Part shown: positions 1-43,752 of the stretch, in pieces
Position numbering within the stretch: position 1 is the first letter of the stretch
Layout: the number at the start of each line of letters is the position of its first letter
Origin: an uncultured Bacteroidales bacterium
Lineage (GTDB): Bacteria; Bacteroidota; Bacteroidia; Bacteroidales; F082
Direction: 5' to 3'
DNA length: 47,339 bases
NCBI GenBank assembly: GCA_947164955.1
Contig: CAMUYT010000003.1
Span: 1 to 47,339 of the forward strand
Notes under the pieces: model-generated
What the model saw: only the letters and a program-made list of their open reading frames with translations
Told to the model about the DNA's origin: nothing
Database searches by the model: none
Position numbers and translations under genes: made by a program

Positions 1-50
1 TACGAGATTGTGGTTGGTGACTGGAGTTCAGACGTGTGCTCTTCCGATCT
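1..50. other. Illumina sequencing adapter remnant (assembly artefact)
   Basis: Bases 17-50 match the Illumina TruSeq index-adapter / read-2 primer sequence, ending in the diagnostic GCTCTTCCGATCT. Bases 1-8 (TACGAGAT) are the end of the P7 flow-cell sequence, and bases 9-16 (TGTGGTTG) sit where an 8-nt index belongs. The match and order are read directly from the sequence and compared with the known adapter. This is untrimmed adapter, not genome, so genuine sequence begins at about base 51 and any ORF starting before that is an artefact. Confidence 0.97.
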
Positions 51-1193
51 GCGCCGATGGCGGTGGAGGAGGGCTTTATTGCGCCTTATCCCATTCCTCT
101 TGAAGGATCTCCGCTTTATGTTGATTTGTATATTGCACCCGTTTATCAAACTCGAAACGGCGATCCGATTACAGAACTTGACTCGGTCGTCATCATGCGC
201 GACGGTGAAGTGGTGATGCAGTTCGATCATGTGAGTACAGGTCATGTTTCGTACCGTGATTTTGTGGACAAAAACGGCACATATTATTATGCGGTGTATG
301 CGGTTAACGAGGCGGGGCATAGTAAGGTGACATGTGACACGATTATGGTTGGCACAACTTGCGATTTGCGTTTCGAGTTGGCCGATAGTGGAAACAATGG
401 TTGGGATTTGTCGTTTATCGCAGTGCTTGATGAAGACGGCAAGGTGTCGCAGCGTGTGGGACTTTGGGATGGCGGCTCTGCTACCCTGTATAGCAATGTG
501 CCAAGTGATCAGACCGCCACTTTCTTCTGGACGTACGACAACACTTGCTATTCGCATGGCAGCCTTTCGGAAGTGTCGTACGAAATCTATGACTGGAACG
601 ACAATTTGATTGTAGCTTCCAACGGATATCCTGAGGTAGGCGATATTACTGACTATGAAATTGGTTGTATTACTGATTGTAGGGCCGTTTCCGAACTTGA
701 TGGCCGATACCAATGGCATGATGCTGATGAGTTTGGCGTCGAGCTGACATGGGAATGGGCTGGCAATGTGACTGATTTCCACGACTTTGCCATTTATAGG
801 AATGATTCATGTGTGGCCATAATTACGGATTCTGAAGTACAAGAGTTCTTCGATGCAGCAAATGAGGTTGGAATGACGGCCTATTCTGTTGTGGTTAATT
901 ATTCAAAATTCAATGGCGAGACATGCCAGTCCGACCCCGTGAGTGTCAATATCGAGGTTACAGTTATAGGTGAGGATGTCGTAAAAGCCTCCCTTTACCC
1001 CAATCCTGCTTCCGACCATTTCAAGGTGGAAAGTCAGGTGAAGGAAATCAAAGTGTTTGATGCTTTGGGTCAGATGGTTTACAAAGGCCAAACCAATGAA
1101 GTGGAAGTGTGTAATTGGAACAACGGTGTGTATTTTGTCCGCATCGTGGACGAAAACGATGTTGTTTCGACAGTGAAGTTCATCAAGGAATAA
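51..1193 (+). CDS. T9SS-exported surface protein, 3' fragment with type A sorting domain
   Basis: This is the 3' end of a gene cut by the contig edge. The frame is open from base 51 and the true start is missing. The readable part (about 380 residues) has FN3-like beta-sandwich segments (around YYYAVYAVNEAGHSKV and later AYSVVVNYSKF). A middle module begins CDLRFELADSGNNGWDLS, of the kind seen in Bacteroidota adhesins. The last ~75 residues are a type A T9SS C-terminal domain: LYPNPASDHFKV, then IKVFDALGQMVYKG, then NNGVYFVRIVDENDVV and a final KFIKE. The family knowledge is that such proteins cross the outer membrane through the T9SS, lose the CTD to PorU and are anchored to the surface. Adhesin function is inferred. 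Its stop lies inside the end of the converging glycosyltransferase gene (11-nt overlap). Confidence 0.88.
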   Translation, partial: APMAVEEGFIAPYPIPLEGSPLYVDLYIAPVYQTRNGDPITELDSVVIMRDGEVVMQFDHVSTGHVSYRDFVDKNGTYYYAVYAVNEAGHSKVTCDTIMVGTTCDLRFELADSGNNGWDLSFIAVLDEDGKVSQRVGLWDGGSATLYSNVPSDQTATFFWTYDNTCYSHGSLSEVSYEIYDWNDNLIVASNGYPEVGDITDYEIGCITDCRAVSELDGRYQWHDADEFGVELTWEWAGNVTDFHDFAIYRNDSCVAIITDSEVQEFFDAANEVGMTAYSVVVNYSKFNGETCQSDPVSVNIEVTVIGEDVVKASLYPNPASDHFKVESQVKEIKVFDALGQMVYKGQTNEVEVCNWNNGVYFVRIVDENDVVSTVKFIKE

Positions 1194-7269: not shown

Positions 7270-8760
7270 TTACTTAGCGAAGGAACTTCCCACCTTGTTC
7301 ATCGCGCAGCGGAAGCCAATGGTGGAGGCGGATTGGTTCTGGTTGAGGTAACGACGCGTGCCAGGACTCAGGAAGTAAGGACCATCGGCCCATGAACCAC
7401 CTTTATACACTCTCGATTCGTCGCTGATAAGGGTCGTACCAGGGTTGTCGTTAGTGGCGAACTCATACATCTCTTTGGTGAAGATGCTTTGGTCGTCTTG
7501 TGGGTCGCTCCAACGGTTACGAATGGCCGACATGTAGTCACCGTCGTCGTAGTTGGAGTTGAAGCTCGTACGATAGTTTTGACGTTTGGCAGCTTCTTCT
7601 TGGGGGATGGGTTCTCTACGGATGCGACCGAGAGAGTCTTTCTGCAGGAGGAAGCCTTCATCGTCGACGGCCTTGCGGGTAAACACATTACCACGGAATG
7701 GGCTGTAGTCGGCAACGTCTTCATGCGACAAGGGACGATAGACATCTTGGCACCACTCGGCAACATTGCCTGCCATATTGTACAGACCGTAGTCGTTAGG
7801 CCAATATGAGCCGACAGGAGCCGGCAGGGCTGCACCGTCATTCAAGTGACCCGCAACACCCATGTAGTCACCAGGGCCTCTCTTGAAGTTAGCCATAAAG
7901 CTTCCATAGTATCTCTTGTTGTCGGTGCGGAGACCATCGCCATTCCAAGGATAGACTTTGCGTTCGCTGACGATTTCATTGCTGGTGTTGCCCACCAAAC
8001 CGACAGCGGCATATTCCCATTCGGCTTCTGTAGGAAGACGATAGGAGGGCAGCAGGATACCGTCGTCCATTCTGACATTACGGACGCCATCGCCACCTTT
8101 CGAGAGGTCCTTCTTGCCGTTCTTCACCTTGCCCGTGTATTGTCCAGCAAGATAAGCATCGGTATTGAAGTTCTCTTCGTCTTGTTGCGTCGGATCCCAG
8201 TCAAGGACGCCTGCTTCAACGAGCATCAACTCGTTGACACGGTCGGTACGCCATGAGCAGTAGTCGTTGGCTTGCACCCAGGTCACACCTACGACAGGAT
8301 AGTCGTTGTAGGACGGGTGCCGGAAATAAATCTCAACCATGGGCTCGTTGTAGGACAAACGGTCGCGCCACACCAATGTGTCCGGAGCGGCATTGCGAAC
8401 CACTTGAGGATAATTTTGGCCGTAAACACGGTTGAGCCAATAGATGTACTCGCGATAGTCAACGTTGCTGACCTCCGTGCGGTCCATCAGGAAGGAAGGC
8501 ACGGTGACCTTGCGGGGCGAGTTGTCCCATGAATAGGTCAGGTTGTCGGTCGTGGCACCCATGACAAAAGTGCCGCCTTCAATGGCAATCAAGCCAGGAC
8601 CAATCTCTTGGTCGTTGACTTCGGTGACTTCGAAACCACCGTTGTTGGCGTCGTTGTAGGCCCAACCCGTTGTGCGCGAAGACTTCTCGGAACAGGAAAC
8701 AGTGAGTAGTCCTGCCAAAACAATGATGGATAATGTCTTGAATCCTTGTTTTTTATACAT
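7270..8760 (-). CDS. gldJ: GldJ-type T9SS/gliding lipoprotein (FGE-sulfatase fold)
   Basis: A 496-residue lipoprotein: N-terminal signal KTLSIIVLAGLLTVSC with the acylated Cys at about residue 23, then a domain related to formylglycine-generating enzymes. Diagnostic text: GPGLIAIEGGTFVMGA, FLMDRTEVSNVDYREYIYWL, PDTLVWRDRLSYNEPMVE, YPVVGVTWVQANDYCSWRTDRVNE, YRLPTEAEWEYAAVGL, YNMAGNVAEWCQDV, YKGGSWADGPYFL and GFRCAMN. The opening pattern (RTTGWAYNDANNGGF) and the PDTLVWRDRLSYNE block match GldJ better than PorK/GldK, as I recall those families. GldJ is an outer-membrane lipoprotein needed for the gliding/T9SS machinery in flavobacteria and is not thought to be enzymatic. It is divergent from porU across 256 nt; linkage of gldJ with porU-porV is known in Flavobacterium. 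It ends at a clear terminator. Confidence 0.9.
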   Translation of the reverse strand: MYKKQGFKTLSIIVLAGLLTVSCSEKSSRTTGWAYNDANNGGFEVTEVNDQEIGPGLIAIEGGTFVMGATTDNLTYSWDNSPRKVTVPSFLMDRTEVSNVDYREYIYWLNRVYGQNYPQVVRNAAPDTLVWRDRLSYNEPMVEIYFRHPSYNDYPVVGVTWVQANDYCSWRTDRVNELMLVEAGVLDWDPTQQDEENFNTDAYLAGQYTGKVKNGKKDLSKGGDGVRNVRMDDGILLPSYRLPTEAEWEYAAVGLVGNTSNEIVSERKVYPWNGDGLRTDNKRYYGSFMANFKRGPGDYMGVAGHLNDGAALPAPVGSYWPNDYGLYNMAGNVAEWCQDVYRPLSHEDVADYSPFRGNVFTRKAVDDEGFLLQKDSLGRIRREPIPQEEAAKRQNYRTSFNSNYDDGDYMSAIRNRWSDPQDDQSIFTKEMYEFATNDNPGTTLISDESRVYKGGSWADGPYFLSPGTRRYLNQNQSASTIGFRCAMNKVGSSFAK

Positions 8761-9016: not shown

Positions 9017-12000
9017 ATGAAATGTAAGTCTCGTTTGATTGCGATAGTTTACCTACTGTTTTCGGTCGTTCTATGCCCGCTTTCGGTCTTGAGTCAAGTG
9101 ACAATGAGCTTGCCTGTCAGCCTGGAGTGGAAGGGCATCGCGCAGCAACGTATGGCCAACGACACCTTATTATATATATGTTTGGAGTCGGCCGAATATA
9201 AAAATGCAATGCCAGTGTACCAACAATCTTTCCCTATTTTTGATGATGCGGTGAAAGTTGATGTGAAATTAGTGAACGTGAAGGCGGAACCGCTGTCGTA
9301 CGATGAGTTGAAATTGGCAGAGGGCTTTGTGTATCAATCTGGTTTTGAGGTGAATGCCAAACCGTTGCGTTCGCGCGACGAGTCGTTGCTTTCGGTGAGC
9401 ATCTCACCTTTCCGACAAAAGGGTGGAAGCTATGAGAAATTGCTTTCGGCGACGCTTCTTGTGACGTTGACACCTGATTTCAGTACACAAAAACCGAATC
9501 CGACGTATGCTCGTCGTTCGGTTCTGGCATCTGGCGAGTGGTACAAAATTGGCCTTCCCGAAACAGGTGTCTATAAGCTGACGGCATCCGATCTTAGTGC
9601 ATTGGGCATCGATGTGTCGGGCGTTGACCCGCGTCAGATTCGTATCTATCATAATGGAGGAGGTGTGTTGCCGGAGATGAACGTCGTCACGCGGCCCGAC
9701 GATTTGGTCGAAGTGCCTATCTACGTGTCGGGAGAAGCCGATGGCAGGTTCGATAACGCCGATTACATCCTTTTTTATGGCCGAGGTCCAGTTTGTTGGT
9801 CGCTTGATGCCCAAAGGCTTGCTTTTACGCATACCCAAAATGCATATGACGACTATGCTTACGCCTTCCTTTCCGTAGGTTTAGGGCAGGGAAAGCGTAT
9901 CAGCGAAGGCAATGCGCCTACAGGAAACGCCAACGAGGTTGTCGACAAGTTCTTGGATTATCGCGTGCATGAAAACGATGACTATAATTTGAACCATGTC
10001 GGTCGTACGTATTATGGCGACAAAATGGACCTTACCTCGACAAAGAACTTTGATTTCAGTTTCCCCAATGTGCTGACAGACAGCCCGTGTTGGGTCAAGA
10101 CGGCTTTGGCGGGGCGCAATTTCCAACCTGCCAATTTCGAGGTGCTGGTCGACAATGATAAGAAAGCCACCTACAATATCGCTTCCACTACGTCGTCTAC
10201 CCAAAGTCCCTATGGCTACAATGTGGGCGGATGGGTCACTTCGCAACCTGTTAGCGAAACGGTGCGTGTTACGCTGAAACACAACTCGTTGGGCTACAAT
10301 ACCAATTCGGAGGGCTATGTGGACTATATCATTGTCAACGCTTGGCGTCGTCTGTCGCTCTCTGGCGGACAAATGCTTTTCCGTAATCCTGAGGCTTCTG
10401 TGATCTCCAAAACCTACGATTTCAGACTCGCCAACGCGACGCAACAAACGCAGGTTTGGGATGTCAGCGACCCCTGCAATCCAACGATCGTCAAAGGCCA
10501 GCTGAGCGGTTCCACCTTGAGTTTTAAGATGATGGGCAAAAGCGATAATGAATTTGTTGCCCACAATGGAAGTTCCTATCTCTCGGCACAGCCCATCGGA
10601 AAAGTCGACAACCAAAACCTTCACGGGATCCGCGACATTGATTTCGTCATCCTGACGTATGCCGATTTCGTGTCGCAAGCCGAGCGTCTCCAGGCCATCC
10701 ACAGTCGGCTGGACCCCGACCTCAATGTATTGGTCACCACGCCTGAGAAGATCTACAATGAATTCTCCTGCGGTGCCAAGGATGTTACGGCCATTCGCGA
10801 TTTTTGTCGTATGCTGTATTGGGATAGCAATATTGGCCATCGATTGAAGTATCTCATGCTTTTGGGCGACTGTTCCTACGACTACAAGAACAAGGAAGGC
10901 CTCGATGATTTTGTGCCGTCGTTCGAGTCCGTGCCGTCGCTCGCCATGGATGAGACATTCGTGACCGACGATTATTTTGGCTTCATGGATGAAAACGAAG
11001 GTGCCATCGACGCTTCGCTTGCCGACATCGGAATAGGGCGTTTCCCCGTGCAGACGTTGGAACAAGCCACGCAGATGGTCGACAAGATCGAACGTTATAT
11101 CGCAAAAGACGCCACCACAATGCAGCCTTGGCGCAATACGGTGACATTTTTTACCGACGACCAGAGTGATTTCGTCGGCCATTCCGAGGAGTTGGCTGCC
11201 CTGTTGCCCGATGTAGGTGGCGAGGGCATCGTGACCGACAAGATCTATTTGGATGCTTATCCTCAAATTAGCGCCCCTGGAGGTGAAATCTGCCCAGAGG
11301 TGAATGCTGCCATCAATAGCCGCATGGAGAAAGGCACATTGGTGCTCAATTATATGGGCCATGGTGGCGAGGTGCAGTTGGCTGAAGAGAAAATCATGCA
11401 GAGAAAAGATGTCGATTCGTGGCGCAATGCTCCGATGTATCCCTTGATGATCACAGGCACTTGCGAGTTTAGCCGTTTCGACGACCATAAACGCACATCC
11501 TTGGGCGAGTATGCCTTCCTGAACCAATATGGCGGCATGATTGCCATGTTTACCACTTCACGAGTGACCTATGGGCCTCAAAACCAGAAGTTTATCAAAG
11601 CGGTTTACAATAATCTGTTTCGCATTGTCGGCGAAGAGCATTACCGATTGGGTGATGTGTATCGCATGGGCAAGACCACAGGTGGCGTTGCGGAAAAACG
11701 CTATGTTTTCTTTGGCGATCCGGCCTTGCGCTTGGCTTATCCCAAATGGAAGGTGGAAACGTTGAGTATCAACGGACAATTCCCTGGTTATGAACTCGAT
11801 TCCATCCAAATCAACGATACTACCCGGCAAACCTATCCTATATATCTTGATACCATTAGCGCTTTGCAACCGGTTGAGATAGAAGGTGTTGTGAAGAATA
11901 TTTATGGGGAAATCGCTTCGAACTTCAATGGTATGGTGAGCGTGATTGTTTACGACAAGGTGACGGAACTGACAGCCAATGGGGTTAACTATCAATTGCG

Positions 12001-12856
12001 TAATAGCGTGGTGTTCAATGGAAAGACGAGGGCGGAGAATGGAAGGTTCAAGATCAATTTCATCGTTCCTCGGGATATCGCTTATCGATATGGCCAAGGT
12101 TTGATTAATTATTACGCGACCGATTATGAACATGAAGCCAACGGAAGTTGCGACTCGTTCATCATTGGCGGCTTTTATGACGAAGCACTCGAAGATCAGG
12201 AGGCTCCTGACATTCGGTTGTTTATCGACGACACGCTTTTCGTTAGTGGCGGCATCACAGGCCAAAATCCCATGCTGCTGGCTTTCATTGATGACGAAAG
12301 CGGCATTAACACCACGGGTGCAGGTATTGGCCACGACATTATGGCTACCTTAGAAGGCCCAGCCAAGAATACCTATTGCCTCAATGATTACTTTGTCGGT
12401 GAACTTGGTCATGCCGGCAAAGGCACCATCACCTATAAGATGCTTGATCTTGTAGACGGCGATTATACCCTTACCCTCAAGGTATGGGATATATACAACA
12501 ATTCAAGTACGGCTTCCATCGATTTTACGGTGGTCAACAATAATGGCATGGTTATTGAGAATGCTTTCAATGCACCGAATCCTGTAACGGACGAGACCTA
12601 TTTCGTGTTCGACCATAACCAAGTGGGCAACAATGTTAAGGTCGACATCCATATCTTTGATATCATGGGGCGTTGGGTGACCACGCTCTCCGAGCAGGTG
12701 TCGGGCACTTCGACGCGTGTCGCGCCCATCCGTTGGGATGGCCGTGGAGCAGGAGGGCAGGACTTACGCAATGGACTCTACGTCTACCGTATTGTAGCCA
12801 CCAACGACCAAGGAGAGACGGCCACTATTGTCTCGAAGTTAGTGTTAAGTAAATGA
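9017..12856 (+). CDS. porU: PorU, T9SS C25-family sortase (first of two)
   Basis: A 1279-residue secreted C25 (gingipain-clan) protein. Order: signal peptide (about 1-26, ending VLSQ); an N-terminal ~150-residue pro-like region; the PorU-type module WYKIGLPETGVYKLTASDL with GVDPRQIRIYHNGGGVLPE; then the peptidase region from about IDFVILTYADFV to RYVFFGDPALRL. The catalytic dyad is visible: His782 in NYMGHGG and Cys816 in TGTCEFSRFD. The C-terminus (AFNAPNPVTDETYFVFDHN, VDIHIFDIMGRWV, NGLYVYRIVATND) is CTD-like and, as known for PorU, may be retained. PorU cleaves the sorting domain of T9SS cargo and joins the cargo to anionic LPS at the cell surface, acting with PorV. The stop overlaps the start of the next porU-like gene (ATGA), implying translational coupling. 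Confidence 0.93.
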   Translation: MKCKSRLIAIVYLLFSVVLCPLSVLSQVTMSLPVSLEWKGIAQQRMANDTLLYICLESAEYKNAMPVYQQSFPIFDDAVKVDVKLVNVKAEPLSYDELKLAEGFVYQSGFEVNAKPLRSRDESLLSVSISPFRQKGGSYEKLLSATLLVTLTPDFSTQKPNPTYARRSVLASGEWYKIGLPETGVYKLTASDLSALGIDVSGVDPRQIRIYHNGGGVLPEMNVVTRPDDLVEVPIYVSGEADGRFDNADYILFYGRGPVCWSLDAQRLAFTHTQNAYDDYAYAFLSVGLGQGKRISEGNAPTGNANEVVDKFLDYRVHENDDYNLNHVGRTYYGDKMDLTSTKNFDFSFPNVLTDSPCWVKTALAGRNFQPANFEVLVDNDKKATYNIASTTSSTQSPYGYNVGGWVTSQPVSETVRVTLKHNSLGYNTNSEGYVDYIIVNAWRRLSLSGGQMLFRNPEASVISKTYDFRLANATQQTQVWDVSDPCNPTIVKGQLSGSTLSFKMMGKSDNEFVAHNGSSYLSAQPIGKVDNQNLHGIRDIDFVILTYADFVSQAERLQAIHSRLDPDLNVLVTTPEKIYNEFSCGAKDVTAIRDFCRMLYWDSNIGHRLKYLMLLGDCSYDYKNKEGLDDFVPSFESVPSLAMDETFVTDDYFGFMDENEGAIDASLADIGIGRFPVQTLEQATQMVDKIERYIAKDATTMQPWRNTVTFFTDDQSDFVGHSEELAALLPDVGGEGIVTDKIYLDAYPQISAPGGEICPEVNAAINSRMEKGTLVLNYMGHGGEVQLAEEKIMQRKDVDSWRNAPMYPLMITGTCEFSRFDDHKRTSLGEYAFLNQYGGMIAMFTTSRVTYGPQNQKFIKAVYNNLFRIVGEEHYRLGDVYRMGKTTGGVAEKRYVFFGDPALRLAYPKWKVETLSINGQFPGYELDSIQINDTTRQTYPIYLDTISALQPVEIEGVVKNIYGEIASNFNGMVSVIVYDKVTELTANGVNYQLRNSVVFNGKTRAENGRFKINFIVPRDIAYRYGQGLINYYATDYEHEANGSCDSFIIGGFYDEALEDQEAPDIRLFIDDTLFVSGGITGQNPMLLAFIDDESGINTTGAGIGHDIMATLEGPAKNTYCLNDYFVGELGHAGKGTITYKMLDLVDGDYTLTLKVWDIYNNSSTASIDFTVVNNNGMVIENAFNAPNPVTDETYFVFDHNQVGNNVKVDIHIFDIMGRWVTTLSEQVSGTSTRVAPIRWDGRGAGGQDLRNGLYVYRIVATNDQGETATIVSKLVLSK

Positions 12857-15800
12857 ATGTCAGTATGAAAAAATATATCCTACTTGTTCTGACGACGGCT
12901 TTCTTCTGGCTTTTGGGTCAAGAGGGGAGTGCTCAGGAAAGCACACACCAATCTGTATTGAGTGAGCACACTTGGTATCGCCTTGCAGTGACCCAAGAGG
13001 GGGTCTATCAGCTCGACCGTGCCACTCTACAATCCATGGGTATTGATGTTGATGCATTGAGTCCGAAACAGATAAGGCTTTTCGGACGTTCTTCGGGAGC
13101 CCTGCCCGAACTGAATTCTGCGCCTCGTCCCGACGATTTGACGGAAATGGCCTTGTTCGTGACCGGTGCCGAAGACAATCGTTTTGATGAAGACGATAGG
13201 GTGTTGTTTTATGGACAGGAAGCTACGCGTTGGACTTTGGTCGACAGCGGAGGCAAGACCTATAAGCGTGAACGCAATTACTATTCTGACACTACTTATT
13301 ATTATTTGTGCGTGGATAGCGGTGTTGAAGGCCTGAGGGTGGACTCAAAGGCCTCACTACCAGTGGAAAACGCCACAACGGTTATTTCTGAGTTCCCCGA
13401 TTTTTTCTGGCACGAGGCGGAACAGTTTTCCCCTTATTCCATCGGGCAGAATTGGTTTGGGGAACGCCTCTCTGCCGGTAATTTATCGCTTTCAATTCCC
13501 TTTGTCTTCCCCAATTTGGTGAAAACCAAGCCGTTGACGGTGAAATCGAGCATTATGGGTCGTGTCAAGCCAGGCAACGTTTTTTATAACGTGATGATTG
13601 GAGACAACCATGTGGCAGCTAATGCTTCGATCGGCTCATACGGGAATAATTACTTTGGTAAGGTGTCGAATATCGACAAGCAAATCACTTTGGAGACCGA
13701 TAGCGCCCAATTCGACTTAAGCATGGTTTCGCATGAGACGGCGGCTATTTATCTCGATTATGTGGAGATTTACGCATGGCGTCTGCTGAAGCGGACGGGC
13801 AGTAATTTCCTGTTTCGCTTGATGCCGAGTCAGTTTGGTGCGGAGAAGAGTGCCGTGTGGGTTCAGAATGCCAGTGCCAATTATTGGCTTTGGGAGGTCA
13901 CTTCGCCGTTGCAGCCTGTTAGGCAGGAAGGCATGTTGAGCGGTGGGAATCTTGTTTTTGCCACTGATGAACAGTTGGAGAAACGCTATGTGATGTTTGA
14001 TCCGGCCTCGGCATTCCAAATCGCGGCATGGACCAAGCTTCACAACCAAAATGTGCATGCCATCGCTTCGGCTGATAACCTTATCCTTACTTCAACGCTT
14101 TTCCTTGAGCAGGCACAGGCTTTGGCCGATTACCATGCTGAAAAAGACGGGTTGGAATGTGTTGTGGTCGATGTGGACGAGATCTACAATGAGTTCTCGG
14201 CTGGTAACCCCGACCCGACAGCAATACGCGACTTCGTTAGGATGGTGTATCTGCGGAGCAACGGACGAATGAAATACTTGACCTTGTTTGGACGAGCTTC
14301 GTTTGATTTTCGTAACATCTTGGGATACAATCAGAATTTTGTGCCCACCTACGAAACCGCCGAGAGTCCGCAACATGAGTTGAGTTTCTGCGCCGATGAT
14401 TATTTTGGCCTGATGGATGAAGACGAAGGCCTCAATTGCCGTGGCCGGGTTGACATCGGCATCGGGCGCCTTCCTGTGGCAACGGTGGCTGAGGCAGAGA
14501 CCATGTTGAACAAGATCCGGCATTACGACGATCTCTCTGCTTCCCATGGCCCATGGAAAGCGGACCTTATGCTGTTTGCCGATGATGAGTCATGGAGTTA
14601 TGTCGACTACGCTGAGAAATATGGCCGTTCGCTCGATACGATTTGCCCTTCGTTGACGCAGAAAAAACTGTTTTGCGGGGCTTATCCTACCGTGAGTACT
14701 TCGAGCGGTGTGGAGATACCTGGCGCTAATGCCGACTTGATGCGTGCCTTGGACAAGGGCCTTTTGGTGTTGTTGTATAATGGCCACGGAGGGGTCAAGG
14801 GACTGACGGGTGACAATGTGTTTACCAATGCCGATATTGCAAAGCTCACCAACTTCGACAAGATGCCTTTCGTTTATACCGCCACTTGTGAGTTTACCAA
14901 ATATGACAATCCGCAGCTCATTTCGGCGGGTGAGAACCTGATCCTTAGTCAACGTGGCGGATGCGTGGCTCTTTTCACTACATGTCGGCCCACAATTGGC
15001 TTCCAAAACGACCGACAAACGAAATCGCTTATTCCCTTGCTAGGGCAACGCGACGAGAATGGCCGGCCATTGCGTTTTGGCGATATCATCAGATTGTCGA
15101 AGAACGATGTGATCAATTTCGACAATCAGAACAACCCTGTCAATAATGTCAACATCCGCTTTGTGTTCATGGGCGATCCCGTACAGCGTTTTGCCATGCC
15201 TCAAGAGCGGGTGAATGTGCAAAGAATCAACGGTGTTGCGGTTAACGATGCCGATGATTTCTCACTCCACGCCATGAGTATGGTTACGGTGGAGGGACGA
15301 ATCGAGTTTTTCGATGGACGTCTCGACACGGGCTTTAACGGTTCACTATGGGCTAGCTTTTACGACCAGAAATCGAAAGTCAATGTGAAGTTCGGTAACC
15401 ATGACCCGGCCGATGTGTACTATTACAGGGATTTGCTCTTTCAGGGAGAGGTCAGTGTGACCGCTGGCAAGTTCAGCATTTCATTCCAAGTGCCCAAATC
15501 CATCATGGCAGGCCAAGGAACACCGCGGTTCAGTTTCTATGCATATGACCCGAATCGAGGTACCGATGCCTTGGGCAAGTTTGACGCCCTCACCCTTGGT
15601 GGCGTCGATCCCGCTGTAATCCCTGATGATGAGGGACCCAAGATCACGTTCTATTGGAACACACCCGACTTCGAAAACGGCCAATCTGTCGAACGCCAAG
15701 GTGTGCTTTATGCCGACCTCTATGATGCGCAGGGAATCTATCACTACGATTATAGCCTCGGTCGTGATATCATGATGAGCAGTAATTTTGCAGCATACAA

Positions 15801-16281
15801 CAGCCTTGTGCTAAATGATTTGTATGAACCGGTGCTGAACGACTATCGTCGTGGACGAGTCGCGCTTCCTGTCGAAGGCCTAGAGCCAGGTACCTATGAG
15901 TTTAAGATCAAGGTGTGGGACACGCAGGACAACCCATCCGAGGCGAGCCTTTGGTTTGTCGTCGACGAGGACCTCTTCCTCTCGCAAGTGTGCAACTATC
16001 CTAATCCCTTTTCTGATGAGACGCGCATCACGCTTTCCCACGATGGTGAAGATGGCAACTTCGATGTCAATATCGAGATTTTCGATATGTTGGGTCGACC
16101 TGTGCAACATCTTAGTAAGAGGGTTAGCGCGACAGGCGGTGTGGTCGAACCCATACTTTGGAATGGGTGCGGTTTTTCTGGAAGTCCCTTGCGTTCAGGA
16201 GTTTATCTTTATCGTTTGACATTGACGGATGAAAATGGTTATTTCCGTACCGTGAGCCAACGCATGGTGATTCAGCGATGA
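12853..16281 (+). CDS. Second PorU-like C25 sortase
   Basis: A 1142-residue paralogue of the preceding protein. ATG at 12853 overlaps the porU stop. A second ATG at 12865 (MKKYILLVLTTAFFW) gives a more usual signal peptide and may be the real start. It lacks most of the N-terminal pro-like region of the first copy and goes almost straight to WYRLAVTQEGVYQLDRATL, ALSPKQIRLFGRSSGALPELN. The C25 domain keeps both catalytic positions: His645 in YNGHGG and Cys679 in TATCEFTKYD. The C-terminal part ends with NYPNPFSDETRITL, VNIEIFDMLGRPV, SGVYLYRLTLTDENG, so it has its own CTD-like fold. It is either a functional second sortase or a specialised partner. Only one PorU is described in the model species I know. 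A promoter candidate for porV follows it. Confidence 0.9.
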   Translation: MNVSMKKYILLVLTTAFFWLLGQEGSAQESTHQSVLSEHTWYRLAVTQEGVYQLDRATLQSMGIDVDALSPKQIRLFGRSSGALPELNSAPRPDDLTEMALFVTGAEDNRFDEDDRVLFYGQEATRWTLVDSGGKTYKRERNYYSDTTYYYLCVDSGVEGLRVDSKASLPVENATTVISEFPDFFWHEAEQFSPYSIGQNWFGERLSAGNLSLSIPFVFPNLVKTKPLTVKSSIMGRVKPGNVFYNVMIGDNHVAANASIGSYGNNYFGKVSNIDKQITLETDSAQFDLSMVSHETAAIYLDYVEIYAWRLLKRTGSNFLFRLMPSQFGAEKSAVWVQNASANYWLWEVTSPLQPVRQEGMLSGGNLVFATDEQLEKRYVMFDPASAFQIAAWTKLHNQNVHAIASADNLILTSTLFLEQAQALADYHAEKDGLECVVVDVDEIYNEFSAGNPDPTAIRDFVRMVYLRSNGRMKYLTLFGRASFDFRNILGYNQNFVPTYETAESPQHELSFCADDYFGLMDEDEGLNCRGRVDIGIGRLPVATVAEAETMLNKIRHYDDLSASHGPWKADLMLFADDESWSYVDYAEKYGRSLDTICPSLTQKKLFCGAYPTVSTSSGVEIPGANADLMRALDKGLLVLLYNGHGGVKGLTGDNVFTNADIAKLTNFDKMPFVYTATCEFTKYDNPQLISAGENLILSQRGGCVALFTTCRPTIGFQNDRQTKSLIPLLGQRDENGRPLRFGDIIRLSKNDVINFDNQNNPVNNVNIRFVFMGDPVQRFAMPQERVNVQRINGVAVNDADDFSLHAMSMVTVEGRIEFFDGRLDTGFNGSLWASFYDQKSKVNVKFGNHDPADVYYYRDLLFQGEVSVTAGKFSISFQVPKSIMAGQGTPRFSFYAYDPNRGTDALGKFDALTLGGVDPAVIPDDEGPKITFYWNTPDFENGQSVERQGVLYADLYDAQGIYHYDYSLGRDIMMSSNFAAYNSLVLNDLYEPVLNDYRRGRVALPVEGLEPGTYEFKIKVWDTQDNPSEASLWFVVDEDLFLSQVCNYPNPFSDETRITLSHDGEDGNFDVNIEIFDMLGRPVQHLSKRVSATGGVVEPILWNGCGFSGSPLRSGVYLYRLTLTDENGYFRTVSQRMVIQR

Positions 16282-16360: not shown

Positions 16361-17602
16361 ATGAAAGTAAAGAAGTTTCTTGTTGCCGCCCTTCTTTTGG
16401 TCGCGGCAGCCTCTTATGGCCAGAACAACAATTACATCGGACAGAGTGTTTCACCTAATGTGATTACCACTGCTGTGCCTTTCGTTTCCATTGCGCCCGA
16501 TGCGCGCGGTGGTGCTTTGGGCGATTGTGGTGTTGCCACAGACCCCGATGTCTATTCCATGCATTACAATGCTGCCAAGTACGTCTATTTGCAGGACAAG
16601 TTCGCGGCTGGTTTGGGCTACAGCCCGTGGCTGCGTAATCTGGTGCCTGACATGAACTTGGCTTATCTGGCTTTGGCCTATAAGATCAACGAGCGCTCGT
16701 CGGTGGCTGGTACTTTGCGTTACTTCAGTTGCGGCGAGATCGAGTTTAGGGATTCCTATAACAATTCCTTGGGCAAATACAGCCCCAATGAATGGGCTAT
16801 CGACGCCACTTATTCGCGTATGCTTGGCGATTATCTTTCTGGCGCTGTGGCGGGACGCTTCATCTATTCCGACCTGACGCAGAACCAAGGCAATGACGCT
16901 CGTCCGGGCATCTCGGTTGCTGCTGACGTCGCTGTGTTCTACAAGAGACCAGTCGAGTGGTTCAGCACGATGGATGCCGACTTTTCATGGGGCGCTGCTA
17001 TCACCAATATCGGTAGCAAAATCAGTTACAACGGTGTCTCCGAACGTCGTGACTTCATCCCCACCACACTTCGTGCCGGTGCAGCCTTGAAACTCGAACT
17101 TGACGAATACAATTCTTTGGCTTTTACTGCCGACCTCACCAAGTTGATGGTGCCTACGCCGCCTGTTATCGCGAGAAATGAACAAGGTAGCCCTATCTTG
17201 AATGACGATGGCACCTACCAGATCCTTTATGGTAAGGACAATAATGTTTCCGTGGTGCAGGGCATGATCCAGTCGTTCTACGACGCCCCTGGTTATGGCT
17301 ATAATTCGACTTACGATCTTGTCAACTACGGAAAGTTCTATGAAGAACTTTGCGAGATCAACATCGGTGGAGGTATCGAGTATTGGTATAATAATATCTT
17401 TGCCGTGCGTGCAGGTTATTTCAACGAAACCGCCTTGAAGGGTAACCGTAAGTATGTCACCTTAGGTGCTGCTTTGAAATACAATGTGTTAGGCATTGAT
17501 GTTTCTTATCTGATTCCGGTCAATACGGTGGCTGGCAGCAATCCCCTGGAGAACACGTTGCGCTTCAACTTGAGCTATGGCTTGGGTGCCAAGAAGGGTT
17601 GA
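16361..17602 (+). CDS. porV: PorV, T9SS outer-membrane shuttle/barrel protein
   Basis: A 413-residue outer-membrane beta-barrel of the PorV (LptO) family. After the signal peptide MKVKKFLVAALLLVAAASYGQ comes the PorV hallmark ITTAVPFVSIAPDARGGALGDCGVATDPDVYSMHYNAAKY. Alternating beta-strand segments follow, ending LGIDVSYLIPVN and LRFNLSYGLGAKKG. PorV collects folded cargo from the SprA translocon at the outer membrane and delivers it to PorU. Placement after two porU-like genes fits one attachment-complex operon, with an internal promoter candidate at 16329. Transcription ends at a bidirectional terminator 15 nt after the stop. Length is normal for the family. Confidence 0.95.
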   Translation: MKVKKFLVAALLLVAAASYGQNNNYIGQSVSPNVITTAVPFVSIAPDARGGALGDCGVATDPDVYSMHYNAAKYVYLQDKFAAGLGYSPWLRNLVPDMNLAYLALAYKINERSSVAGTLRYFSCGEIEFRDSYNNSLGKYSPNEWAIDATYSRMLGDYLSGAVAGRFIYSDLTQNQGNDARPGISVAADVAVFYKRPVEWFSTMDADFSWGAAITNIGSKISYNGVSERRDFIPTTLRAGAALKLELDEYNSLAFTADLTKLMVPTPPVIARNEQGSPILNDDGTYQILYGKDNNVSVVQGMIQSFYDAPGYGYNSTYDLVNYGKFYEELCEINIGGGIEYWYNNIFAVRAGYFNETALKGNRKYVTLGAALKYNVLGIDVSYLIPVNTVAGSNPLENTLRFNLSYGLGAKKG

Positions 17603-26346: not shown

Positions 26347-27084
26347 ATGGAAGAGAAGCAAGAACGAAGGAAGTTTTTTGGCAGTTTGGTTATCCCAATG
26401 CTGATCGTCACCATCATGTGGTTGGTGAAGCTCATTGAGGTGTCGTTTGGCATTGATTTGGGCCGTTGGGGCGTTACACCGCATACCTCACAGGGGTTGA
26501 TAGGCATCCTGACGTTGCCGTTCCTACACGGCAATTGGGAGCATCTTTTGTCGAACACGGTGCCTATCTTGGTGTTAGGGACGGCATTGTATTATTGCTA
26601 TCCTTCACTTGCCAACCGTGTCTTGCTTATCATTTATCTCGGTAGTGGGTTGCTTACATGGTGCATAGGCCTTCCTGAAAGCACCCATATCGGAGCGAGC
26701 GCCTTGGTTTACGGACTCAATCTTTTCTTGATCTTCAGCGGTTTCATACGAGGCAATAAAATGCTTATCGTTATTTCACTCATTATGGTGTTCCTGTATG
26801 GCAGTTTCATTTGGGGCATGATTCCATCCTTGGCCATTCCGCAAAACATCTCTTGGGAAGGACATCTCAGTGGAGCCATCATTGGGGTCTTGTTGGCTTT
26901 CTTCCTTCGTAAAGAGGGACCACAGAAAGAGGTGTTCCATTGGGATGAAGAGGATGAAGAGGATGACGCTTCGGCAGACACTGCGTCGGGTGATTCCACG
27001 GATCCGGCGTCCGAAAAACCTTATTGGGATGTGCCTACACCAAGTGACGAAGAATTAACGGTACGTTATCGTTTCAGGCATTAA
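26347..27084 (+). CDS. Rhomboid-family intramembrane serine protease
   Basis: A 245-residue integral membrane protein with about six helices. The rhomboid fold is marked by FLHGNWEHLLSNTVPILVLG (the H-x4-N-type motif of helix 2), the catalytic Ser118 in HIGASALVYG (G-x-S-x) and the partner His173 in SWEGHLSGAIIGVLLAF. Rhomboids cut single-pass membrane proteins inside or near the bilayer. A ~45-residue acidic cytosolic tail (WDEEDEEDDASAD and onwards) follows the last helix. The stop shares the TTAA tetranucleotide with the stop of the converging SGNH gene. Substrate unknown. Confidence 0.93.
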   Translation: MEEKQERRKFFGSLVIPMLIVTIMWLVKLIEVSFGIDLGRWGVTPHTSQGLIGILTLPFLHGNWEHLLSNTVPILVLGTALYYCYPSLANRVLLIIYLGSGLLTWCIGLPESTHIGASALVYGLNLFLIFSGFIRGNKMLIVISLIMVFLYGSFIWGMIPSLAIPQNISWEGHLSGAIIGVLLAFFLRKEGPQKEVFHWDEEDEEDDASADTASGDSTDPASEKPYWDVPTPSDEELTVRYRFRH

Positions 27085-27817: not shown

Positions 27818-29470
27818 TCAATTGATTATAATCATTTCTGTTCTGCGGTTCAAGGCGCGATGCTCTTCAGTGTCGTTGGCAACCATGGGCTTTGTGGCGC
27901 CATAGCCTTTGGCTGTCAATCGCGTTTCTTCAATGCCATTGGCAATCAAGGCCTTCCTGACCGATTCGGCACGGTCGGAAGAGAGTTTCAAGTTGTAGTT
28001 GTCGTTGCCCACATTGTCGGTATGTCCGGCAAGTTCCACCTTCAAGTCGGGATTGCGTTTGAGGAATGCCGTCAATATCTGTAGGCCCGTCTCAGAGTCG
28101 GCCGTCAAAGCGGCGCTGTTGAATTCAAACTGTATGTTTTGTAGCACTACGGCATCGCCGGGCGCAAGTTCTACCACGTCTACAGACGAAAGGTAATCGG
28201 CTGAATCTGAGCGTATGTCGTCAGGCAGCTCGAAGGAGTAAATGTCGTAGCCGCCTTGTCCACCCTCGCGTTGTGAGGAGATGAAGGCTGTCTTGCCATC
28301 CGCTGCCACGAAAAAGTTGATCTCGTCGCCAGAGTTGTTGATGGGAAACCCTAAGTTGATGGGCTGTTGCCATTGCCCTTCATCATTTCTGCGGCTCATG
28401 AACAAGTCGAAGCCACCCATGCCAACATGTTTATCCGACGAGAAATAGAGCGTGCGACCATCGGGATGCAGGAAGGGAGCCATTTCGGTCCCTTTCGTGT
28501 TGATGGGCTCGCCTAGGTTTTGGGGCTCGCCCCAAGTACCATCAGCATGGCGCACCGATCGATAAATGTCGGCATTGCCCGAACGGCGTGAAACAAAAAA
28601 CAGCTCGCGTCCGTCGCTGCTCACGCAGGGTTGTGATTCCCAGTTTTGCGTGTTGATATGGTCGGGTAATGCATCGGGAGTCGACCATTGTCCATCATTC
28701 CATCGCGAAACGTATAGATCGCAGCTGCTGTTGCGGCTCCAACCGCAGCCTGTAAGGTAGAGTTTGCTGCCATCAGCAGAAATGAAAGCCGCACCAGGGT
28801 CGATGTCTTCCGGAAAATCGGCAAATGCAAGAGGTTGAGGGGCAGACCATTGCATGCCATCCCATTGGGCGACAAGGAGGGACTCTTTATGATAGCCATT
28901 GCCCATAGGCATTTTGCGCGTAAAGAGCAGTTGTGTGCCATCAAACGAAAGCATGTTCACATATTCGTCGTCTTTTGAGTTGATAGCCATGCCGAGATGA
29001 TTGGGCTCAAATGGGACGGGATGGCTTGTGGCCCAATCGCGAAAGCTGGCCAGTGTCAGCATTTCTGCCACTACGGCATCATTGGCGGCATTGCCTTTGG
29101 CAGCTTTTTGATACCAATCCAAAACCGCTTTTTCCTTCTTGTACGCATTTTTTCGGTCATAGAGTCTTGCCAAGGTGATGGCCGCAGGCGGAAACAGCAT
29201 CGAATCGCAGGCCAAGGCTTTTTCATAGCCCAAGATGGCCATGTCGTAATCTTGGGTCTCCATACCGATTTCGCCTTCCAAGAGCCATGCCTCGGCATAG
29301 TTGGGGTCTTCCACAATGGCTTTCACCACCTGCTGGTAGGCTTTCTTGTAGTCGCGGTTCAGGAAGGCCGACTCGGCATTTTCGTATGCTTTGACGGCTT
29401 TTTTGGGGCGTTGGCTGAAAGCGGGAACCAATCCCATGCACAAAACCATAAGAAGGATCATGCGTTTCAT
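27818..29470 (-). CDS. PorE-like TPR / beta-propeller / OmpA-domain protein
   Basis: About 550 residues from MKRMILLMVLCMGLVPAFSQ (ATG at 29470). N-terminal TPRs cover about 27-150 (AYENAESAFLNRDYKKAYQQVVKAIVEDPNYAEAW). A PD40-type beta-propeller covers about 165-425, with repeats such as SADGSKLYLTG, SSDGRELFFVSRRSG, HPDGRTLYFSSDKH and AADGKTAFISSQREGG. The C-terminal OmpA peptidoglycan-binding domain has IQFEFNSAALT, ELAGHTDNVGNDNYN and LSSDRAESVRKALI. The architecture matches PorE of Porphyromonas gingivalis, which links the T9SS to peptidoglycan. Unlike PorE, the signal peptide looks like type I with no lipobox. It overlaps the upstream gene by ATGA. Whether it is the T9SS PorE or one of several homologues cannot be settled here. 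Confidence 0.85.
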   Translation of the reverse strand: MKRMILLMVLCMGLVPAFSQRPKKAVKAYENAESAFLNRDYKKAYQQVVKAIVEDPNYAEAWLLEGEIGMETQDYDMAILGYEKALACDSMLFPPAAITLARLYDRKNAYKKEKAVLDWYQKAAKGNAANDAVVAEMLTLASFRDWATSHPVPFEPNHLGMAINSKDDEYVNMLSFDGTQLLFTRKMPMGNGYHKESLLVAQWDGMQWSAPQPLAFADFPEDIDPGAAFISADGSKLYLTGCGWSRNSSCDLYVSRWNDGQWSTPDALPDHINTQNWESQPCVSSDGRELFFVSRRSGNADIYRSVRHADGTWGEPQNLGEPINTKGTEMAPFLHPDGRTLYFSSDKHVGMGGFDLFMSRRNDEGQWQQPINLGFPINNSGDEINFFVAADGKTAFISSQREGGQGGYDIYSFELPDDIRSDSADYLSSVDVVELAPGDAVVLQNIQFEFNSAALTADSETGLQILTAFLKRNPDLKVELAGHTDNVGNDNYNLKLSSDRAESVRKALIANGIEETRLTAKGYGATKPMVANDTEEHRALNRRTEMIIIN

Positions 29471-30387
29471 GGCTGCTGGTTTTTTTTGTGGTCTGCAATC
29501 CATTTCCTGAAGTCGGCCACAAGGACGCGCGAAGTCATGGTAGGAGTGGCCTCGGCTGTGATAAAGCACCTTCCATCGTCGAAGAAGCAGATGCCTTCTG
29601 TTTGTGCACCTGCGAGTTGTGGCATTTCAAAACGTCGGTGCGAAAGCTTCACGCCTTTCTCGTCAAAGTCGAAGATGAGGTAAATGAAAGGCTTCATAAT
29701 CGTCTTTACATAGCCCACCAATACTAGTATATTGAGTTCCTCATTGTAGTCGACACCGGTAATCAGCCCTTGCGAGTTGAAGCCGTTAACCACTTCAGCG
29801 ACTTGTCTTCCAGGCGTTTTTTGGAGGCGGTAGAGCCGTGTCGTGCCCGTTTGCCAGCCTTTGCTGAACAGATAGAGGTAGTCGTGTGTGGCAAAGAAGG
29901 CCTCACAGTCGAAATCGTGCACCTTGCGTTTCGTGAAATTGGTTTGGTCGCCAAAGCGGAAGCAGATGGAGTCGACCGCAATTGTCGCGTTGCCCTCTTC
30001 AGGTATTTCGGAGAGCGGGAAAACGTATATTCGTAAATCTTTTCGGTTGCCTTTGTTGTTGCCGAAATCGCCTACAAAGACTTGGCGCCCATCGCAGCAT
30101 ACATCCTCCCAATCCTTGTTTTTGACGTTGGCCAACGTTATTCTTTGCACAATTTCGAAGTTGGTCGTGTCGATGGCAAAGAGGATGGGCTTACCGCCAC
30201 TGTCGTTATGGGTCCAAAGGCGGCCGTTATGGAAGAAGGCCCCGGAAGTCTCGTTGACTTCCTTGGGTAGCTCCGACTTGAACTGGGGAATAAAAACAGG
30301 AGAGAAGCGCGCCGTCCCTCCCTTTTGCGCCATTGCCAGGATGGGGAACGACAACAGAAGCAAACCGATGAGCCATTTTTTTTTCAT
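29467..30387 (-). CDS. Secreted beta-propeller-like protein of unknown function
   Basis: About 306 residues from MKKKWLIGLLLLSFPILAMAQ, a clear signal peptide. The start at 30387 is preferred over 30474 because a TATTTTTG promoter box lies between them. A conserved Bacteroidota pattern is visible: RLWTHNDSGGKPILFAID, then VKNKDWEDVCCDGRQVFVGDFGNNKGNRKDLRIYVFP, and later HDFDCEAFF and GAQTEGICFFDDGRCFITAE. It resembles SdiA-regulated-type propellers, but no enzymatic motif is evident. It is the first gene of an operon with the PorE-like and SGNH genes (ATGA overlap). A structural or ligand-binding role at the envelope is a guess. Confidence 0.82.
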   Translation of the reverse strand: MKKKWLIGLLLLSFPILAMAQKGGTARFSPVFIPQFKSELPKEVNETSGAFFHNGRLWTHNDSGGKPILFAIDTTNFEIVQRITLANVKNKDWEDVCCDGRQVFVGDFGNNKGNRKDLRIYVFPLSEIPEEGNATIAVDSICFRFGDQTNFTKRKVHDFDCEAFFATHDYLYLFSKGWQTGTTRLYRLQKTPGRQVAEVVNGFNSQGLITGVDYNEELNILVLVGYVKTIMKPFIYLIFDFDEKGVKLSHRRFEMPQLAGAQTEGICFFDDGRCFITAEATPTMTSRVLVADFRKWIADHKKNQQP

Positions 30388-40879: not shown

Positions 40880-41364
40880 AGCTTGATCATTTTAAGGGTT
40901 GCAGACTCGGTTTTCACAAGGTAGACGCCCATCGCGAGGTCGGAAATGTCGATGGCTTGTTCGCCCGAAGCCTCGAAGCTTTTCATCAGGCGGCCATCGA
41001 GGGCATAGATGTTGATGGTTTGCAAGCCTTGAAGGTTGCGGATGACCAATGCATCGTGAACGGGGTTGGGGAAGATGCTTAATGCCGTGGCGTCGTTTTC
41101 ATTGGTGCCTTCTGTTTCATGGCAGGTCAGCTTGCGGATGTCAGCCAACGGGATTTTCACTGTGCTTTTGTATTCGTTTATTTCGATGACGAGTATCGTA
41201 TTGTCCTCGAAATACATACGGTCGGCTTCCGTCATCGTATAGTTCTGCTCGGCTCCGTTGTTGAGCGTGACAACAACTTGCGTGGATTGCGCTGCCATGC
41301 TTAAAGCCATTCCAAAAGTGGAGATTAGCAGGAACAGCGTTCGTTTGATTATGTGCTTCATCAT
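40876..41364 (-). CDS. Small T9SS type A sorting-domain protein
   Basis: A 162-residue exported protein. The signal peptide ends near SMAAQ. Residues 27-82 (TQVVVTLNNGAEQNYTMTEADRMYFED, TVKIPLADIRKLTC) form a small beta domain like that at the N-terminus of the next protein in the operon. The last ~75 residues are a complete type A CTD: LSIFPNPVHDALVIRNL, TINIYALDGRLMKSF, LAMGVYLVKTESATLKMIKL. So nearly half of the protein is sorting signal, and the mature surface part would be only ~60 residues. It heads a four-gene operon and has its own promoter. It may serve as a surface anchor or partner for the beta-helix protein (inference). Confidence 0.9.
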   Translation of the reverse strand: MMKHIIKRTLFLLISTFGMALSMAAQSTQVVVTLNNGAEQNYTMTEADRMYFEDNTILVIEINEYKSTVKIPLADIRKLTCHETEGTNENDATALSIFPNPVHDALVIRNLQGLQTINIYALDGRLMKSFEASGEQAIDISDLAMGVYLVKTESATLKMIKL

Positions 41365-43714: not shown

Positions 43715-43752
43715 CGTGAATGGAGTTGGGATGCAAAATTGCAAAGAATTCC

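Follow-up and report, generated by a model that had tools for sequence, protein, structure and literature searches.

Two diverged PorU-type sortases, apparently an old pair, encoded in tandem in front of porV in an uncultured Bacteroidales bacterium

The 47,339-nucleotide stretch of contig CAMUYT010000003.1 (GenBank assembly GCA_947164955.1) analysed here, referred to at its full length as the window, comes from an uncultured Bacteroidales bacterium of the family F082 and carries two genes for PorU, the sortase of the type IX secretion system, in tandem in front of the shuttle gene porV. The tandem apparently represents two old, different and working PorU proteins, PorU-A and PorU-B, that occur in many gut and environmental Bacteroidales, and phylogenetic trees place their duplication inside this order and before the origin of the window's family. 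We consider it probable, at a little better than even confidence, that the gldJ/porU-A-porU-B-porV locus holds an old paralogue pair in which PorU-A would serve as the standard sortase and PorU-B as an accessory one. PorU-B appears to have been lost often.

Identification of the two PorU proteins

An earlier note on this DNA had described two complete PorU sortases in tandem before porV, both retaining the catalytic dyad of the C25 peptidases and an end resembling the C-terminal domain (CTD) of type IX cargo, and this description is borne out. Both open reading frames (ORFs) are as described, and over their whole length they exceed by far the cut-off of 420 bits of the NCBIfam PorU model NF033707 (PorU-A 1152 bits, PorU-B 992 bits). 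The C25 domain (PF01364) is matched with 304.7 and 284.1 bits, respectively. With TIGR04183, the model of the type A CTD, the two proteins score 25.9 and 28.3 bits and so pass its cut-off of 23, while the scores with the Pfam CTD model PF18962 (19.7 and 23.7 bits) are both under its cut-off of 27. The PorU of Porphyromonas gingivalis (6za2) is the sole solved relative found at E 0.001 for either protein (E-values 1e-128 for PorU-A and 8e-97 for PorU-B). The two proteins share 32% identity over 1148 columns, and the catalytic His and Cys residues are present in all of the 99 aligned PorU sequences, both of these included. Judged by these matches, both proteins are complete C25 peptidases of the PorU type, each with the dyad intact and an end resembling a CTD, and both look catalytically competent.

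The same note had held that the second copy lacks most of an N-terminal region. PorU-A matches the N-terminal 'long form' model NF052318 with 44.1 bits (cut-off 40) and PorU-B gives no match to it at E 0.001, so the absence as such stands; but PorU-B has nearly the length of the P. gingivalis chain (1142 against 1156 residues) and by that measure is not truncated. Absence of the region is no mark of PorU-B, since 28 of 45 B copies possess it and 12 of 45 A copies are without it (33 have it).

Two other identities of PorU-B were considered and rejected. A secreted gingipain-like protease, the outcome that the earlier note had named as fatal to its proposal, belongs to the same peptidase family, but in a tree with ten C25 domains of the own genome the 22 PorU rows, PorU-B among them, split off as a separate group with support 100/100; none of the 12 weaker C25 matches of this genome scores above 59 bits with the PorU model, where PorU-B reaches 992. 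PorU2 (NF052324, cut-off 450), which has a related C25 region, is matched only weakly by both proteins (PorU-A 174 bits, PorU-B 180 bits), and no PorU2 above the cut-off was found in the own genome, which is 73% complete. Many gingipain-like C25 proteins (L003-L014) are present in this genome beside the two PorUs, with 16 C25 matches including PorU; the number of C25 proteins ranges from 5 to 20 across 50 genomes of the genus.

Phylogenetic analysis of the pair

The earlier note had proposed a phylogeny of PorU across the Bacteroidales as a check on whether the copies form two old clades, and two such clades were obtained. In a FastTree phylogeny of 173 PorU sequences, the first and the second genes of the tandems separate in 19 families (f1, f4, f6, f38, f43, f46, f48, f64, f70, f72, f73, f80, f92, f94, f95, f96, f103, f107 and f112), with the A and B genes lying on different contigs in f107. 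An IQ-TREE phylogeny was calculated from 98 rows picked by family from 174 sequences, without the families f64, f73 and f107, with the second copy of f4 dropped or unused and L093_2 dropped for its long branch. Here clade A comprises all of the 26 first copies used (support 93/87) and clade B 24 of the 25 second copies from 14 families (support 87/99), the second copy of f6, L061_2, falling outside clade B. Both groups recur under the C20 mixture model, for which L093_1 and L072_2 were additionally left out.

Constrained topologies were also compared. Neither a single clade of all B copies (p 0.397) nor a clade of A and B alone (p 0.381) is rejected, whereas a duplication confined to the window's family (p 0.0021) and a pairing of A with B within genome G178 of another family (p 0.006) are both rejected. 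Widespread gene conversion between the copies was not seen in per-domain trees of 25 genomes, in which a B copy is nearer to its own A than to any other B in 0 or 1 of the 25 genomes per domain; direct repeats between porU-A and porU-B measure at most 37 nt. The trees thus show a duplication inside the Bacteroidales that is older than the window's family.

The PorU of P. gingivalis falls outside both A and B, with other single-copy Bacteroidales, under the LG+G4 as well as the C20 model. In the FastTree phylogeny clade B also takes in short single PorUs from several families of Bacteroidales; this placement of the P. gingivalis-like PorUs was not kept because the two better models disagree with it.

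A second, independent old PorU pair, on separate contigs and outside the A and B clades, seems to be present in the families f66 and f29 (L121-L124).

Sequence divergence and selection

Divergence and motif counts were obtained from 45 of the 52 loci in which a single fetched stretch carries two PorUs, leaving out L042, L070, L071, L073, L093, L094 and L133 (truncated, long-branched or without an A/B pair); as these genomes are related, the divergence measures are descriptive. The ratio of B to A distances is 1.69 in the segment corresponding to PorU-A residues 1076-1180, before the CTD, and 1.25-1.29 in the four other mature segments (circular-shift p 0.010 for the excess). A second stretch of high divergence lies around the dyad (PorU-A residues 735-849). 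The pre-CTD segment, a putative immunoglobulin-like domain with weak Pfam matches, contains the motif D-ESGINTTGxGIGHDI. At its core, conservation per position is 91-100% in A and mostly 77-100% in other PorUs, but the motif is eroded in B, with His1106 replaced by Arg in 64% of the B copies. Positions conserved in A and the other PorUs that fall below in B number 33, against 10 for the reverse (thresholds 0.9 and 0.85). PorU-A therefore seems to be the copy that has kept the old function.

The ratio of nonsynonymous to synonymous substitution rates (dN/dS) is about 0.05-0.17 for both genes in close pairs, as estimated from 38 locus pairs, some of which derive from the same genome twice and in many of which synonymous divergence is saturated. 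By this estimate both PorUs are under purifying selection, PorU-B where it is kept. An interpretation of PorU-B as a decaying copy was rejected on account of these values, the open reading frames and the kept dyad.

Distribution and probable loss of PorU-B

The counts of PorU per genome rest on the best candidates scored in each genome (six in the family and genus searches, four in the order sample and three in the phylum sample), and a split gene can count twice. Among the 100 genomes listed for the window's family, at least two PorU matches occur in 61 of the 62 genomes outside the own genus and genus g3; the latter (12 genomes listed) has one PorU in ten genomes, none in one and three in one, while two PorUs are present in 15 of the 26 own-genus genomes. 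A genus-wide search of 99 genomes gave at least two PorUs in 70, one in 27 and none in two. At least two PorUs, split genes possibly included, are present in 42 of the 132 genomes of the order sample that have any PorU. In the phylum sample, taken outside the order, PorU occurs in 136 of 198 genomes and is single in 134 of these, the other two being the own genome, with two, and one with a gene in two pieces.

The named relatives are uncultured Bacteroidales or Bacteroidia, many of them from rumen, abomasum or horse faeces; the 80 relatives include Candidatus Limimorpha equi (L164) and a Lentimicrobiaceae metagenome-assembled genome (MAG; L179). Two MAGs titled Chlorobiota (L203, L207) carry an A-B-porV tandem close to the Bacteroidales copies, and their titles may be wrong. 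At least four PorU matches per genome are found in G126 (family f28) and G205 (family f107), and another f28 genome (L073) has a PorU tandem of its own.

Within the own genus, 11 of the 26 loci read are without porU-B, and all 11 keep porU-A next to porV; these represent 11 of the 27 single-PorU genomes of the genus. Mapping the presence of B on the A tree (26 genus loci and five outgroup rows) requires five changes, four of which are forced by well-supported branches, and the changes are read as losses because the B tree follows the same branching as the A tree.

Genomes with B (n=32) are larger than those without (n=17), with medians of 2.9 and 2.4 Mb (p 0.0001), and have more CTD candidates (medians 127 and 107, p 0.012) and more C25 proteins beside PorU (medians 10 and 8, p 0.006); kinship is ignored in this comparison and the CTD proteins are unscored first-look candidates. 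The number of C25 proteins per Mb does not differ (p 0.25). The suggestion of the earlier note that the two sortases handle different cargo sets is weakened, at least as an all-or-none split, since B is missing several times over with the number of type A CTD candidates per Mb unchanged; the comparison argues against a large set of cargo proteins reserved for B.

The junction between porU-A and porU-B

From the ATGA overlap of the two genes the earlier note had concluded a fixed stoichiometry. The overlap exists in the window, but a second in-frame ATG, followed immediately by two lysine codons, lies 8 nt downstream, and of 75 distinct tandem loci 42 have an in-frame ATG at -4 and 31 have one at +8. 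Of the 43 distinct loci resembling those of the own genus, 34 have an in-frame ATG at -4 and 39 have one between +6 and +14; each of the nine that are without the -4 ATG has a downstream ATG. When 108 tandem loci are considered (two collections sharing genomes rather than 108 genomes, with A and B assigned by the sign of the score difference), 31 have the nearest start (ATG, GTG or TTG) at -4, and in 85 it falls within -38 to +30 of the porU-A stop. Because the downstream start is at least as conserved and the junctions vary, a fixed stoichiometry is unsupported, whereas the tight spacing of the genes makes coupled translation likely.

Partner proteins

Most genomes with several PorUs have single copies of the partner proteins. 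In the order sample, 40 of the 42 multi-PorU genomes carry one PorZ (PF21544); two were found in G101 and none in G220. PorV (NF033710) occurs once in 39 of these 42 genomes, twice in G220 and three times in G233, where two of the three matches are under the cut-off, and is absent from G116. G101 has two close PorUs on separate contigs (C9 111003-114299; C25 24806-28105) and two PorZ matches side by side (C20 212772-215595), so that PorU and PorZ are both doubled in this genome. The own genome has PorZ, PorV, one PorQ (238.8 bits, cut-off 220) and a further PorV-family barrel considered below, with a weak fourth match to the PorV family. Every one of the 50 genus genomes has between 1 and 4 type B CTD matches (46 of them 1-2), single- and double-PorU genomes being alike in this, and some of the matches are PorU's own CTD. 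Neither a second PorZ or PorV proper nor extra type B CTDs were seen to accompany PorU-B in the genomes surveyed.

In P. gingivalis, PorQ, PorU, PorV and PorZ stand at 1:1:1:1 (PMC12704123), and PorV of Flavobacterium johnsoniae is considered to be either present in excess or reused (PMC12618676). One PorV gene could therefore serve two sortases, although the further barrel of the own genome may offer another route.

Relation to known systems

Both proteins belong to the family of the P. gingivalis PorU over their entire mature length and share its Cys/His dyad; the CTD-type end of that protein stays uncleaved (PMC11285876). The P. gingivalis protein is described as a single copy, and its chain of 1156 residues is without the long-form region, whereas here two paralogues are present, PorU-A with the region and PorU-B without it. 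PorU-A keeps the layout and the GIGHDI motif of the single long-form PorU of other Bacteroidota (NF052318), which is unaccompanied by a second copy in 134 of the 136 PorU-bearing genomes of the phylum sample. The GldJ/GldK and GldN/GldO pairs of F. johnsoniae are likewise duplications of type IX components (PMC10202324), but of parts of the outer-membrane ring rather than of the attachment complex.

Searches of the literature, which did not extend to most subscription papers, turned up no paper on a genome with two PorUs, and the reservation of the earlier note that tandem PorU might already have been described for this lineage finds no support there. The 'two PorU' of PMC11285876 are two mutants; the duplication in PMC8861167 concerns collagenase candidates, its PorU strings being locus tags, and the porU1 strings of PMC5121618 are reference numbers.

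Probable functions of PorU-A and PorU-B

If PorU-A is the standard and PorU-B an accessory sortase, both proteins would be exported through Sec and then through the type IX system on their own CTDs, and PorV would hold both at the cell surface. PorU-A would act in the standard PorQ-U-V-Z complex, cutting the CTDs of cargo proteins and joining the cargo to a surface glycan, and PorU-B would take its place in a minority of the complexes. PorU-B might then handle a subset of the cargo, use another acceptor or be under different control. The extra divergence of PorU-B peaks around the active-site segment (PorU-A residues 735-849) and the pre-CTD domain (1076-1180).

Several observations weigh against this reading. 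Support for the fork that unites A and B is low (67/27 under LG+G4 and 12 under C20), and the single-copy lineages L079, L081 and L085, together with the second copy L061_2, lie beside it, so that the share of single-copy lineages descending from the duplication is uncertain. Single-domain trees recover 11, 24 and 19 of the 25 B copies, the group with 24 including six other rows. The small C25 tree has B copies in two separate positions, the window's PorU-B, L028_2 and L043_2 in one and three others elsewhere. The number of CTD candidates per Mb does not differ between genomes that have B (median 45.8) and those that lack it (median 46.7; p 0.64), and there is therefore no positive sign of a B-specific cargo set; PorU-B could be nearly redundant. 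The own genome also encodes a further barrel of the PorV family (G000:C93, L215:294-1382; NF033709 145.7 bits, cut-off 90), which by the cut-offs is neither PorV (88.2 bits, cut-off 250) nor PorQ (53.1 bits) and may be a shuttle of PorU-B's own.

Among the other explanations, PorU-A and PorU-B might form a heterodimer with cross-latency, one copy gating the other until the pair splits in the attachment complex. Intermolecular latency of the P. gingivalis PorU by pairing, with a beta-hairpin of one molecule blocking the protease site of the other, is described in a review (PMC10202324); the genes are adjacent, with the nearest start within the above range of the porU-A stop in 85 of the 108 tandem loci, and PorU-B differs most from PorU-A in a domain outside the protease. 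PorU-A, however, occurs alone in 11 loci of the genus, and nearly all PorU-bearing genomes of the phylum sample have just one PorU, so that PorU-A needs no PorU-B, and we consider such gating unlikely. Dosage or backup, in which PorU-B does the same job and adds capacity for many type A cargoes, would fit the larger genomes with more CTD candidates and C25 proteins (uncorrected for kinship) and the repeated absence of B. The lack of a difference in either number per Mb stands against it, and dosage alone leaves unexplained the separation of the two clades across families, the one-sided erosion of the motif and the scarcity of gene conversion; it, too, is improbable in our judgement.

Orthology of PorU-B with the PorU of P. 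gingivalis, A having been lost in that species, is quite doubtful; in this case the PorUs of the model organisms would not correspond one to one. The FastTree placement of short single PorUs inside B, with which the P. gingivalis protein groups, would agree with it, and the approximately unbiased (AU) test does not reject a group of B with the Porphyromonas-like rows (p 0.107), but the LG+G4 and C20 trees place the P. gingivalis PorU outside A and B, and both B and the Porphyromonas-like rows sit on long branches, which tend to attract each other. Tandem duplications that arose independently in each family are very improbable: recent lineage-specific PorU duplicates do exist in the order (L071, L073, L115/L116, L117/L118 and L133) and the deep fork has weak support, but separate origins are rejected in the two cases tested, the window's family and G178, and in the sampled tandems the first genes fall in A and the second in B.

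Beyond the reading of PorU-A as the standard and PorU-B as an accessory sortase, the attachment complex in a large part of the Bacteroidales may tentatively be viewed as a two-sortase machine in which an old A/B pair shares one PorV and PorZ, with PorU-B, altered in its active-site segment and pre-CTD domain, gating PorU-A in a mixed dimer or passing cargo to a second acceptor; this is possible, at clearly less than even confidence. If true, anchoring or release of a cargo protein would depend on which PorU handles it. How PorU chooses between released and attached cargo is called unsolved in the review PMC10202324, and related genomes with and without a diverged second sortase offer a comparative system for this question. 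The assumption of one PorU per genome fails for many Bacteroidales, and names copied from P. gingivalis can hide a paralogue.

Organisation of the locus and other features of the window

The features of the locus are listed in Table 1. A gldJ-like ORF is present in 69 of the 121 fetched PorU stretches, many of which end short of its position. The G+C content of the locus (0.48-0.50) is inside the range of the surrounding DNA, and a foreign origin was rejected on this base composition.

Table 1. Coordinates of the gldJ/porU-A-porU-B-porV locus in the window
Feature	Position	Strand	Basis
gldJ-like lipoprotein gene, divergent left neighbour	7270..8760	-	TIGR03524 460.6 bits, cut-off 458.2
porU-A, PorU sortase, clade A, long form, 1279 aa	9017..12856	+	NF033707, 6za2, tree
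PorU-A signal peptide and N-terminal 'long form' region, residues 1-160	9017..9496	+	NF052318 44.1 bits
PorU-A catalytic His782 (GHGG)	11360..11362	+	alignment of 99 PorUs
PorU-A catalytic Cys816 (GTCEF)	11462..11464	+	alignment of 99 PorUs
PorU-A pre-CTD domain, residues 1076-1180	12242..12556	+	A-vs-B conservation and divergence
PorU-A motif D-ESGINTTGxGIGHDI, within the pre-CTD domain	12293-12340	+	core 91-100% conserved in A
porU-B, second PorU sortase, clade B, without N-terminal region, 1142 aa	12853..16281	+	NF033707, 6za2, tree
ATGA, porU-A stop overlapping an in-frame ATG of porU-B	12853..12856	+	
Alternative porU-B start ATG, 1138-aa product, at least as likely as 12853	12865	+	
PorU-B catalytic His645	14785..14787	+	alignment of 99 PorUs
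PorU-B catalytic Cys679	14887..14889	+	alignment of 99 PorUs
PorU-B eroded counterpart of the GIGHDI motif, D-AQGIYHYDYSLGRDI	15724..15771	+	
porV, type A shuttle gene	16361..17602	+	NF033710 431 bits, cut-off 250

Scans of the window for promoters and terminators gave 16 hits against 11.7 expected and 12 against 10.2 expected, respectively, and searches with Rfam (gathering cut-offs) and for tRNA genes gave no match in it. An OmpA-like protein is encoded at 27821..29569 (-), with scores below the cut-offs of both CHU_0125 (279.7 bits, cut-off 620) and PorE (258 bits, cut-off 600), and a UvrA-like protein of 766 residues at 41459..43756 (-), which reaches 683.9 bits against a cut-off of 729.8 with TIGR00630, a model of 924 positions. 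A weak match to rhombosortase (30.9 bits, cut-off 84) lies at 26347..27084 (+). Two ORFs of the window end in a type A CTD (TIGR04183), one at 36..1193 (+) with 47.4 bits and one of 162 residues at 40876..41364 (-) with 40.9 bits.

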